Below, in pieces: positions 4,408 to 12,225 of a stretch of 64,000 nt of DNA (position 1 is its first letter; every line of letters begins with the position of its first letter). Origin of the DNA: Allocoprobacillus halotolerans (GTDB lineage Bacteria; Bacillota_I; Bacilli_A; Erysipelotrichales; Coprobacillaceae); the NCBI RefSeq assembly GCF_024399475.1, contig NZ_CP101620.1, positions 2,151,608 through 2,215,607 on the forward strand, given 5' to 3'. The notes beneath the pieces are model-generated. The model made no database searches. It worked only from the letters and a program-made list of their open reading frames with translations, and was not told where the DNA came from. Made by a program: the position numbers and the translations under genes.

Positions 4408-4439
4408 ATATAAGTATTTTAAAGATATGGAGGGATATA

Positions 4440-5746
4440 ATGTCAATTTTATCTGGAAAAGGAAAAGTTAAATTAGATGGACAAAAAGGTTTAACAAAAG
4501 ATAAACCTATTTTGACTATCGAAACACCTGACGTTATTTATGTTCCCCTTGTTTTAGGAGTTGCGACAGACTTTGATGTTCATGTCAAAGAAGGAGATCA
4601 TGTTTGTATTGGAACAAAACTTGCGACACGTAAGAGTATGTATGTTCCAATTTATTCTCCTGTGTCTGGAACAGTAAAGGGGATAGAAAAACGTATGCAT
4701 GCTTCTAAGCGTTTGCAAAATCATATTGTGATTGAAAATGATCATAAAGATGAAAAAGTAAAAGCTTATGAAGTGAGTGATCCTGATCATATGAGTCAGG
4801 AAGATATTATTAAAGCCATTAAAGAATTGGGAATTGTTGGATTAGGTGGTTCAGGATTTCCAACATATGTGAAATATGAAAATGTTAAAAATATTGAAAC
4901 AATTTTGATTAATGGTGTAGAATGTGAACCATTCTTAACAAGCGATCATGTGGCTATGAAACGTGATATTAAAGCTTTGTTTGATGGTGTTCATTATATG
5001 ATTCAAGCTGCTGGAGCTAAAAATGCAATTATTGCGATTAAAGAACATAAACCTGATTTAATGGAGTTATTAGTCGAAGAAGCGAAGAATTATGACAATA
5101 TTAAACCACGCGAAGTTCCTGACCGTTATCCAATGGGATGGGAAAGAGTCTTGATTCGTACTGTCTTCAAAAAGAATATGATCGTTTACCAGCAGAAATA
5201 GGAGTTATTGTCAATAACTCATCAACTGCGATTGCACTTTCAAAAGGAATCCGTAATGGAGAAGCAATTACACGTCGTGTTGTTACATTCTCTGGAAATG
5301 GATTGAAAGAACCACAAAACGTTGATGTGGCAATTGGAACACCAGTGAATTATATTGTTGAAAAAATTGGTGGATACATTGATGATGATTGTGATGGTTT
5401 CTTAGTTGGTGGTGGACCAATGATGGGAAAATCTATAGTCAATGATACTTTCGTGATTTATTCTCATAACAATGCAATTACAGTTATGAAAAAAGAAAAC
5501 ATTCAACCATTACCATGTTTAAAATGTGGTGAATGTACTTTACATTGTCCAATGCATTTACAACCAGTTCGTATTATGCAGGCAGAAAAAGCAGCCAATG
5601 TGGAATTGATTGAAAAATTAGATACTGATCGTTGTGTTGAATGTGGTATGTGTACATATATTTGTCCAAGTAAAATTGAAGTGACAGATATGGTAGCAAA
5701 AGCAAAACGTCGTATGCAATTAGCTCAAAGAAAGAAAAATGCGTAG
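4440..5746 (+). CDS. rnfC: Rnf electron transport complex subunit C (frameshifted in this assembly)
   Basis: About 435 residues after restoring one A in the GAAAG at about 5142-5144, which joins the two reading frames at WE-KS. GGAGGG lies upstream of ATG 4440. RnfC is the peripheral subunit that binds FMN and NAD(H) and passes electrons to the Na+/H+-pumping Rnf complex. Visible parts are an N-terminal barrel-like region, the GLGGSGFPTYVK loop and INGVECEP (nucleotide/flavin binding, about residues 135-165). A C-terminal pair of [4Fe-4S] motifs follows: CLKCGECTLHCP (Cys 360, 363, 366, 370) and CVECGMCTYICP (Cys 399, 402, 405, 409). It is the first gene of rnfCDGEA-x-B, 15 nt before rnfD. 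Confidence 0.93.
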
Positions 5747-8161: not shown

Positions 8162-8815
8162 ATGAAGAAATTTGATGTATTTAAAAAAGGATTATTTGCT
8201 GAAAATCCAATCTTTGTTTTATTGTTAGGTCTATGTTCATCCCTAGCAATTACAACTTCATTAACAAATGCGATTGGTATGGGAATGGCTGTTATTTGTG
8301 TTTTGTTGATGAGTAACTTTATTATTTCTTTATTAAGAAAAATCATTCCTAATGAAATTAGAATTCCAGTATTTATTGTTATTATTGCAACACTTGTTAA
8401 ATGTGTGCAAATGATTATGAATGCTTATACACCTGCATTGTATGAATCTTTAGGTGTTTTCATTCCATTGATTGTTGTTAACTGTATTATTTTAGGAAGA
8501 GCTGAAAGTTTCGCTTCTAAAAATGGTGTAGTTGATTCAATTTTAGATGCTTTAGGAATGGGAATTGGATATACATTTGCAGTTGTCATTATTTCATTCT
8601 TTAGAGAATTGATTGGTACAGGTGGTTTATCATTATACAACCCATTTGATGCAAGTCAAATTATTTTCCAATTCAATTTCTTTGGTGATTATGCAGTTAG
8701 CTTGTTTACACAACCAGCTGGAGCTTTCATCACTTTGGGTACAATTCTAGCCTTTATTCAATTCTTAAAAGTAAGAAAAGCAAAGAAAGTGAGGTCAAAT
8801 AGTTTATGGAATTAG
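8162..8815 (+). CDS. rnfE: Rnf complex subunit E
   Basis: 217 residues, six membrane helices, homologous to NqrD. The conserved Cys-containing half-helices LLGLCSSLAITTS and VVNCIILGRAE are present. In Rnf/Nqr structures these residues, with the matching ones of RnfA, hold the membrane-embedded [2Fe-2S] centre. AAGGAGGG precedes the ATG. The last 10 nt overlap rnfA. Confidence 0.93.
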   Translation: MKKFDVFKKGLFAENPIFVLLLGLCSSLAITTSLTNAIGMGMAVICVLLMSNFIISLLRKIIPNEIRIPVFIVIIATLVKCVQMIMNAYTPALYESLGVFIPLIVVNCIILGRAESFASKNGVVDSILDALGMGIGYTFAVVIISFFRELIGTGGLSLYNPFDASQIIFQFNFFGDYAVSLFTQPAGAFITLGTILAFIQFLKVRKAKKVRSNSLWN

Positions 8816-9378
8816 TGAGTTTATTTATTGGATTAACGTTTGTTAATAACGTTGTATTAAGTAAGTTTTATGCTATTTGTCCATTGTTAGGTGTTTCTAA
8901 AAAACCTAAGAATGCTTTGAATATGGGATATGCTGTGACATTTGTTATTTTCTTAGCATCTATTATCACATATCTTATCTATTATCATGTATTAGTACCA
9001 TTAAAAATTACTTATTTAGATTTAATTACATTTATTTTAGTCATTGCGTCTTTGGTACAATTTGTTGAAATGTTCTTAAAGAAAACAAGTCCAGAAATCT
9101 ATAAATCTATGGGTGTTTATTTACCATTAATTACAACAAACTGTGCTGTACTTGGAGTTGCATTAGATAATATCAGTGCCGGATATACACTCATTGAAGC
9201 AATGGTAGCTGGTCTTGCTGTGCCAATTGGATTTACAATTGTTATTTATGTATTTGCGACAATTCGTGAAAGATTGGATATTGCCAATGTACCAGAAAGC
9301 TTTAAGGGAACACCAATTGCTTTAATTACAGCTGGTATTATGGCATGTGCTATTGCCGGAATCGCAGGTCTTGTTTAA
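8806..9378 (+). CDS. rnfA: Rnf complex subunit A
   Basis: 190 residues, six membrane helices, homologous to NqrE and inversely related to RnfE. Cysteines in FYAICPLLG and TTNCAVLGVAL match the second half of the RnfA/RnfE [2Fe-2S] site. The stop codon overlaps the start of the next small gene (TAATG), indicating translational coupling. Confidence 0.93.
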   Translation: MELVSLFIGLTFVNNVVLSKFYAICPLLGVSKKPKNALNMGYAVTFVIFLASIITYLIYYHVLVPLKITYLDLITFILVIASLVQFVEMFLKKTSPEIYKSMGVYLPLITTNCAVLGVALDNISAGYTLIEAMVAGLAVPIGFTIVIYVFATIRERLDIANVPESFKGTPIALITAGIMACAIAGIAGLV

Positions 9379-9563
9379 TGTCGATTTGGGCAATTATATG
9401 GCTAGTTATTTTAATAGCCATCTTTATTGGAACTTATTTATTAAATAAGCATACCCCTAAACCTGAGGGATGTGAAGATATGAGTGAATGTACAGGCTGC
9501 AATAATATTGCATGTTCTCATCATAATGCTCATCATAAGGAGGAAGTAAAAGATGCAAATTAG
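9378..9563 (+). CDS. Cys-rich single-pass membrane protein in the rnf operon, NqrM-like architecture
   Basis: 61 residues starting at the ATG that shares an A with the rnfA stop. An N-terminal membrane helix (residues 4-22) is followed by a short tail with four cysteines, C32, C38, C41 and C46 (GCEDMSECTGCNNIACSHH), and four His (48, 49, 52, 53). The size, topology and Cys cluster resemble NqrM (DUF539), which is needed to mature the iron centre of the related Na+-NQR complex. Position between the NqrE homologue rnfA and rnfB fits such a role. Homology to NqrM is not proven: the Cys spacing differs (x5, x2, x4 here). It could also be an Rnf-specific accessory or iron-binding protein. Confidence 0.65.
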   Translation: MSIWAIIWLVILIAIFIGTYLLNKHTPKPEGCEDMSECTGCNNIACSHHNAHHKEEVKDAN

Positions 9564-9863
9564 TGCTATATTCGCATTGCTTGTCATTGGTGCTGTACTT
9601 GGATGTGTTTTAGGTATTGCTAATCAATACTTGCGTGTAGAAGAAGATAATCGCATTGGTGATGTGACAGAAATGTTACCAGGTGCCAATTGTGGTGGAT
9701 GTGGTTATCCAGGTTGTGCAGGTTTTGCTGGTGCTTTGGTTGAAGGAAACGCTCCAAAAGTCTCTGCGTGCGTTGTCAGCAATCAGGAAACAAGAGAAAA
9801 ATTGCACAATATTTAAATGAAACACCTGGTCCAGATGGACAAACTGTAAAGGTTTCAATTTAA
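9553..9863 (+). CDS. rnfB: Short Rnf subunit B (one Fe-S cluster domain; frameshifted in this assembly)
   Basis: 103 residues after restoring one A in the A5 run at about 9797-9801; unrepaired it stops at 9816. An N-terminal membrane anchor (about 3-22) and one [4Fe-4S] domain with C47, C50, C55 and C73 (NCGGCGYPGC then SACVV) match the start of RnfB. The protein ends right after this with GPDGQTVKVSI, and a terminator follows at once. The ferredoxin-like [4Fe-4S] repeats of usual RnfB (about 190-330 residues) are therefore absent. Start overlaps the small Cys-rich gene by 11 nt, with AGGAGG upstream. Confidence 0.85.
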
Positions 9864-10492: not shown

Positions 10493-12225
10493 ATGGTTAT
10501 TAAAACATTGATGAAACAAATTAAACAATATAAAAAGGATTCTTTTTTAACAATCTTTTTTGCTATTGTGGAAGTTATTTTAGAAATTTTGATTCCTTTA
10601 ATGATGGCAAGAATTATTGATTTAGGAATTGAAGCGGAAATATCAATGCTGTGTATAAATACGGTTTGATCATGTTTGTGATTGCAATAGGAACATTATC
10701 AACAGGTTTCTTAGCTGGAAAATATGCTGCGAAAGCTTCAACAGGGTTTGCAGCTAATATAAGAGATGGAATGTATACGAATATTCAATCTTTTTCATTC
10801 TCTAATATTGATAAGTACAGTACAGCGGGGCTTGTGACACGTTTAACAACGGATATTACAAACGTTCAAATGGCTTATCAAATGATCATTCGTATGTGTA
10901 TTCGTGCACCAATGAACTTAATCTGTGCTTTAACAATGGCTTTTATGATTAACCATGAATTAAGTTTAATCTTTGTAGGAGCTATGGGATTCTTGATTAT
11001 TGTTTTAGGTTTTATTATGATTACAGCAACACGTTATTTTAATCAAGTTTTCCCTAAATATGATGATTTAAACGAAAGTGTTCAAGAAAATGTTGTCGCT
11101 ATTCGTGTTGTCAAATCTTTTGTCAGAGAAAAATATGAAGATGAAAAATTTAAAAAAGCAGCGCAAAATATTTATCGTTTATTTGTAAAAGCAGAATCTA
11201 TTCTGGCTTTAAATAACCCTGCTATGATGAGTGCGGTTTATGGATGTATTTTACTTTTATCATGGCTTGGAGCAAAAACAGTTGTTGGTGGAACACTTAC
11301 AACTGGAGAATTAACAACACTATTTAGTTATATTATGAATATTTTGATGGCTTTAATGATGTTGTCTATGGCTTTTGTTATGATTACAATGTCATTTGCA
11401 TCAGCAAGACGTATTGCTGAAGTATTGAATGAAAAATCAGATTTAGTTTCTCCTGAAAATGCTTTAAAAACAGTCAAAAGTGGTTCTGTTACATTTGATC
11501 ATGTGACTTTTTCATATAAACATGGAACAGGTGAACCCGTTTTAAGAGATATTGATATTCATATTCACTCTGGTGAAACAATTGGTATTATAGGTGGAAC
11601 TGGAAGTGCTAAAAGTACGCTTGTTAGCTTGATTAGTCGTCTTTATGACGTTGATCGAGGAAGTGTTATTGTTGGTGGAGAAGATGTTAGAAATTACGAT
11701 TTGGAAGTTTTAAGAAATGAAGTTGCAGTGGTTTTACAAAACAATGTTTTATTCAGTGGAACAATCTTACAGAATTTAAAATGGGGTAATGAAAATGCGA
11801 CTTTAGAAGAATGTCAGGAAGCTTGTCGTTTGGCATGTGCTGATGACTTTATTCAAGATTTCCCTGATAAATATAATACTTATATTGAACAAGGTGGTAC
11901 GAATGTATCTGGTGGCCAAAAGCAACGTTTATGTATTGCAAGAGCCTTGTTAAAGAAACCAAAGATCTTAATCTTAGATGACTCAACAAGTGCTGTTGAT
12001 ACTGCAACGGATGCAAGTATTCAAAAATCATTTGATGAACGTATCCCTGATACAACGAAGATTATTATTTCGCAACGTGTTTCAAGTGTACAAAATGCTG
12101 ATCGTATTATTGTTTTAAATGATGGTATCATTGATGATTTTGATTCACATGAAAACTTATTAAAAACAAGCGAAATTTATCGTACAATCTATGAAACACA
12201 AACAAAAGGGAAGGAGGAAGCATAA
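10493..12225 (+). CDS. ABC exporter half-transporter, degenerate ATP site (frameshifted in this assembly)
   Basis: 577 residues after restoring one G at about 10636 (GCGG to GCGGG); the first 47 codons are in another frame. Order: six-helix exporter membrane domain (1-320), then NBD with Walker A GGTGSAKST, signature VSGGQKQR, Walker B ILILDDSTSAVD and switch ISQRVSSV. The catalytic Glu after Walker B is Asp, the switch His is Gln, and the last Gly of Walker A is Ala. These are marks of the degenerate half of heterodimeric exporters. Its stop overlaps the start of the partner gene (TAATG). Likely a MarR-controlled multidrug or peptide exporter. Confidence 0.88.

Follow-up and report, generated by a model that had tools for sequence, protein, structure and literature searches.

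An open reading frame for only 61 amino acids, wedged between rnfA and rnfB, raises the question of what a small cysteine-rich membrane protein does within an rnf operon. The operon lies in a window (the whole stretch of DNA analysed, 64,000 nucleotides from Allocoprobacillus halotolerans) and shows the gene order rnfC-D-G-E-A-small gene-B. Its Rnf subunits are encoded as follows:

4434..5746, + strand: rnfC, split; TIGR01945 matches the C-terminal part; intact relatives have 435-449 aa
5762..7611, + strand: rnfD with a C-terminal pair of FMN_bind domains, split; in the intact homologue L190, PF03116 plus two stretches of PF04205
7624..8148, + strand: rnfG; TIGR01947, E=4e-23; PF04205 FMN_bind domain
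8162..8815, + strand: rnfE; TIGR01948, 243 bits, over the cut-off
8806..9378, + strand: rnfA; TIGR01943, 235.5 bits, over the cut-off
9553..9863, + strand: rnfB of the short type, about 103 aa, reading frame broken; PF04060, E=1.4e-12; intact relatives of 103 aa

Three of these genes are interrupted by single-nucleotide deletions relative to a congener, located at about position 5174 in rnfC, 6895 in rnfD and 9797 in rnfB, in or beside runs of A. Because the relatives are intact, the breaks look like sequence errors and not like biology, and as neighbouring genes (e.g. at 10493-12225) also appear split, the assembly probably contains indel errors. The RnfB of the window consists of a helix and a PF04060 Fe-S domain and has no ferredoxin domains, while the RnfB proteins of known structures carry 2-7 C-terminal clusters. 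Reading of the translations revealed two candidate [2Fe-2S] cysteines in RnfA and four across RnfA and RnfE together. These four are expected to ligate an intramembrane [2Fe-2S] cluster, as reported for the four cysteines of RnfA/RnfE-type subunits (PMC12174285). The fusion of RnfD with two C-terminal FMN_bind domains also occurs at loci L183, L184 and L190 (619 aa in L190) and stands alongside a separate RnfG, which suggests additional covalent flavins on these Rnf complexes.

The small gene and the elements read within and around it are the following:

9376..9380, + strand: TAATG, overlap of the rnfA stop with the start of the small gene, read from the sequence
9378..9563, + strand: gene for a small Cys-rich single-helix membrane protein of 61 aa, based on direct sequence reading, conservation and dN/dS
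9384..9449, + strand: transmembrane helix, residues 3-24 by AlphaFold2, predicted N-out/C-in from the positive-inside count
9450..9560, + strand: predicted cytoplasmic tail, N-x2-T-P-x-P-x-G-C-x5-C-x2-C-x4-C plus a His cluster, from the invariant columns and a 103-member alignment
9537..9543, + strand: AAGGAGG, a Shine-Dalgarno-like sequence for rnfB located within the small gene, read from the sequence

The start codon at 9378 overlaps the rnfA stop in an offset that is the commonest junction between rnfA and the small gene (37 of 101 homologues), and since the TAG stop lies at 9561-9563 and the rnfB start codon at 9553, the gene overlaps with rnfB as well. Its product, MSIWAIIWLVILIAIFIGTYLLNKHTPKPEGCEDMSECTGCNNIACSHHNAHHKEEVKDAN, carries cysteines at positions 32, 38, 41 and 46 and a His cluster at the C-terminus. 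The four cysteines, the single helix and the stop/start overlap with rnfA listed in an initial annotation of the locus were all found as described. The His cluster that it also pointed out is present in the window, but is kept in the close family only.

The overlap with the ribosome-binding site of rnfB might be taken to mean that the reading frame is spurious or merely a leader peptide for rnfB translation. However, the dN/dS ratios between the window sequence and four congeners amounted to 0.05-0.14 (at dS values of 0.36-0.88), seven positions (N23, T26, P29, C32, C38, C41 and C46) are invariant in an alignment of 28 diverse members, and the gene is kept even where it is unlinked from rnf. 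The within-genus ratios and the invariant positions show that the gene is translated and subject to purifying selection, which leaves the leader explanation with a negligible probability. In-frame TAG or TAA codons noticed in some homologues proved to be alignments overrunning the true stop, as checked in L086 and L088, and a suspected fusion of the small protein with RnfB in genome G104 consisted of two overlapping reading frames.

AlphaFold2 predicted one confident helix comprising residues 3-24 of the small protein, followed by a tail of low confidence. Averaged over 102 homologues, 0.32 Lys or Arg residues per sequence precede the helix, compared to 2.24 in the 15 residues following it, and because of this bias the helix is predicted to be oriented N-out/C-in with the Cys tail in the cytoplasm. 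About nine tenths of the 103 aligned family members, of which a few rows (e.g. L083) are badly trimmed or picked, contain all four cysteines, and the core C-x2-C-x2-6-C is present in nearly all. The first cysteine (C32) is the one most often lost, being absent in some distant families which keep the core. In small genomes of 0.8-0.9 Mb, the gene is cut down to about 35-40 codons and still located between rnfA and rnfB; these versions of 35-40 aa consist of the helix and three or four cysteines.

The gene is clearly conserved beyond this strain. It was detected in 22 of 43 genomes of the family (one weak match included), and orthologues are present in 165 of 245 sampled genomes of the order, with rnfA in 184. 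A profile search of a phylum sample yielded the small gene in 117 and rnfA in 136 of 392 genomes, and all genomes matching the small-gene profile belong to the class of the window. Within the class sample, the small gene and rnfA nearly always occur together, the only genomes with the small gene and without rnfA being G437 and, by a weak match, G547. Among 299 genomes of the phylum containing the Clostridia (that of a Lachnospiraceae member), we obtained three weak partial matches, none of them convincing. The named rnf loci, 80 in total and nearly all from Clostridia, have a long rnfB directly behind rnfA in 76 cases; in three of the other four the contig ends within the locus, and the last (L254) encodes an apparently shortened RnfB.

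The distribution follows the type of RnfB. An RnfB of the short type typically comprises about 100 aa, with a membrane helix and a single Fe-S domain (PF04060), and has no polyferredoxin part; long RnfB proteins carry several Fer4 domains, whereas the short RnfB of a congener carries none. Short RnfB proteins are encoded in 114 of 134 distinct operons. The search of other rnf operons proposed in the initial annotation recovered the small gene in 103 of these 114 (101 recognised by pattern, plus L185 and L177), with rnfA on one side and rnfB on the other. Two further loci, L098 and L171, fell outside the pattern classification, L171 having the small gene by annotation. In contrast, the gene was found in none of the 14 complete long-RnfB operons of the class, a count from which the contig-end operon L033 was excluded, and in none of three NQR-type operons. 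Six genomes (G376, G519, G436, G508, G517 and G429) contain short-RnfB operons lacking the gene and have it elsewhere in the genome; at the level of families, f20, f21, f24 and f25 retain it outside the operon. From the operon counts, the retention of unlinked copies and the versions in reduced genomes, we regard the small protein as very probably an accessory protein dedicated to a distinct subtype of Rnf, namely the one with an RnfB lacking the polyferredoxin domain, and not as a general Rnf factor.

A Fisher test of this pairing returned P ~1e-12, which overstates the independence of the operons, because the type of RnfB changes only once on a tree of RnfA and RnfE and the association consequently has a single origin. 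We looked on this tree for independent cases in which RnfB length and the small gene changed together and found none, only the single change of RnfB. Being one evolutionary event, the pairing with short RnfB is not in itself proof of a causal relationship, and the small genes which are unlinked but retained are more telling for the association than the operon counts.

A few loci depart from the pattern. In a single member of the class, G351 (locus L220), a short RnfB occurs without a detectable partner gene, and RnfA is prolonged there by an acidic stretch of about 40 aa at the C-terminus. No partner was found either in the genome of Clostridium sp. HBUAS56010 (L254), where rnfB ends just past the Fe-S domain in a lineage otherwise equipped with long RnfB. 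Genome G148 combines a long-RnfB operon with a weak match to the small family at the genome level. The RnfB proteins of L158 and L178 contain a duplicated Fe-S domain (183-187 aa), and in L158 another copy of the small Cys gene follows rnfB. Free-standing copies outside rnf were observed at L198, L199 and L201-L205, next to a PAP2-like phosphatase gene, flanked by the genes for phosphoglucomutase and uracil-DNA glycosylase, or next to a dCMP-deaminase-like gene. Directly 3' of rnfB in one genus lies a gene for a flavodiiron-type protein with ODP and flavodoxin domains (L042:2631-3563), and similar divergent reading frames are present in L048 and L057. The NQR-type operons (L209, L210 and L211) encode homologues of RnfD, G, E and A and an NqrF-like protein with Fer2, FAD and NAD domains; no rnfB, NqrA or small gene adjoins them.

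The gene had been presumed too small for reliable annotation, and in fact no Pfam or NCBIfam model recognised the window protein or any of the 28 members over its cut-off, the proteins being too small or divergent for current models. The initial annotation had proposed it as the Rnf counterpart of NqrM (PF04400, DUF539), the maturation factor of Na+-NQR. NqrM is also a small protein with one N-terminal helix and a Cys tail, and it is encoded together with a sister enzyme sharing the RnfA/E-type Fe-S site. Its motif is GSCGG with Cys further on, however, compared to PxPxGC-x5-C-x2-C-x4-C in the small protein, whose gene accompanies the short-RnfB type of Rnf and does not lie beside the NQR-type operons examined. 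None of the 28 members matched PF04400 at E values up to 10, and none of 195 genomes of the phylum contained a canonical NqrM over the cut-off of this model. The suggested profile comparison did not support the relationship: against eight aligned NqrM sequences, which had been collected in tblastn searches, hhalign returned a probability of 13-19% for the small family, and 4 of 40 tail-shuffled NqrM profiles scored as high. Judged from the sequences, the likeness to NqrM is one of architecture only. The notion of a counterpart holds in so far as the protein is dedicated to rnf, is encoded next to rnfA, which specifies half of the intramembrane [2Fe-2S] site, and follows an NqrM-like plan, but it does not extend to Rnf in general, as the long-RnfB operons do without the gene.

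The highest profile score among the families compared was obtained with the FeoB-associated Cys-rich proteins (PF12669), which share with the small protein a single helix, a basic juxtamembrane stretch and a Cys tail, in their case C-x3-C-x2-C-x3-6-C. The probability was 84%, falling to 55% when gappy columns were trimmed, and 2 of 40 shuffled controls reached the trimmed score. The window protein scored 16 bits with PF12669, compared to a cut-off of 27 bits, and sub-threshold matches appeared in 10 of the 28 members (best E value 0.0014). These values, the common plan and the free-standing copies outside rnf would fit a FeoB-associated relative recruited to the rnf operon for general iron handling near the membrane. 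However, the true PF12669 proteins are encoded by separate genes beside those for FeoB-like proteins in the same genomes and occur also in genomes without Rnf, whereas the small family tracks Rnf and sits in rnf operons and not with feoB. Also considering the shuffled controls, we think this origin improbable.

RnfB itself provides another match. Its N-terminal region likewise consists of a helix followed by C-x2-C-x4-C, and the two genes are adjacent. Profile comparison of the small family with this region gave 46-63%, a range which no shuffled control attained (0/60 and 0/40). If meaningful, this would favour a role as the seventh subunit, structural or electron-relaying, of the Rnf complex with short RnfB. 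The helix of the small protein would then pack by RnfA/E and its Cys tail would bind a cluster or aid the docking of ferredoxin or of the mobile Fe-S domain of RnfB, replacing the polyferredoxin. The pairing with short RnfB, the gene position between rnfA and rnfB and the identity of C-x2-C-x4-C with the first three cysteines of the RnfB motif (C-x2-C-x4-C-x16-C) are in line with this proposal. On the other hand, the small protein lacks the fourth cysteine of that motif and has an upstream one instead, and PF04060 does not match the window protein. Moreover, the loss of the first cysteine and a spacing varying from x2 to x6 are unlike a fixed redox site, the gene is unlinked in several lineages, and the protein is too small to stand in for a multi-cluster domain. 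Because the N-terminal region of RnfB also matches the FeoB-associated proteins (62%), the signal may reflect only the common C-x2-C-x4-C or the helix and Cys plan. We consider a seventh subunit the main alternative, possible but doubtful, and its extension, in which a metal-carrying subunit and the one-cluster RnfB would form a minimal electron-entry module receiving electrons from ferredoxin without a polyferredoxin wire, unlikely.

A further membrane protein with cysteines is RseC/MucC (PF04246), whose gene accompanies rnf or rsx and which is rnf-associated in Clostridia and Proteobacteria. It is larger than the small protein and has two helices. By analogy with a role proposed for RseC in Clostridium ljungdahlii, the small protein could act as a redox or iron sensor controlling Rnf expression or activity. 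A report on this species describes rseC, together with RNF, as indispensable for autotrophy (PMC9124969), and the small protein is a Cys-containing membrane protein within an rnf operon, too. Against this stand its lack of an output domain, the single PF04246 match among the 28 members (E=9.7), and the overlap with both structural neighbours, which suggests equal dosage; a sensor therefore appears highly improbable. Altogether, the small protein belongs by architecture among the helix-plus-Cys-tail proteins, and the sequences support membership in no named family.

The explanation we prefer, with about even confidence, is a membrane-anchored factor for Fe or Fe-S delivery or assembly, serving RnfA, RnfE and RnfB of the short-RnfB subtype. 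The single N-out helix would anchor the cytoplasmic Cys tail at the membrane face of these subunits, where the C-x2-C-x4-C tail and the upstream cysteine would transiently bind Fe or an Fe-S cluster and hand it to an Rnf subunit during assembly. Likely recipients would be the intramembrane [2Fe-2S] site of RnfA/E or the single [4Fe-4S] domain of RnfB, and the protein would then act in an NqrM-like manner, family membership apart. The loss of the first cysteine, the loose Cys spacing, the tiny size and the exit of the gene from the operon are easier to reconcile with a factor for transfer or assembly than with a rigid site of electron transfer, and for the sister enzyme NqrM sets a precedent (PMC12174285; PMC6209661). 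Rnf complexes with a long RnfB possess the same RnfA/E site and lack the small gene, which means that a factor of this kind is not a universal requirement of the site; the NQR-type operons without an adjoining small gene and the absence of a canonical NqrM from the phylum sample set the same limit.

We found no description of the short-RnfB subtype or of the small-protein family in the full-text literature searched, which largely excluded subscription journals, and nothing on RnfB in combination with Erysipelotrich-; the novelty of both is provisional. NqrM was discussed there for NQR only, and the sole maturation factor that a 2025 review lists for the common intramembrane cluster is that of NQR (PMC12174285). 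In a report on the mollicute Peloplasma, the locus tags of rnf skip 6452239 and 6452242, which would fit a gene within the cluster that went unmentioned.

Rnf is a main energy-conserving complex in many gut and environmental anaerobes. The small gene offers a genetic handle on how the RnfA/E cluster or the single cluster of RnfB is built, and the stripped-down Rnf provides one on how little is required of RnfB for electron entry. Heterologous expression of Rnf from these bacteria should include the small gene.
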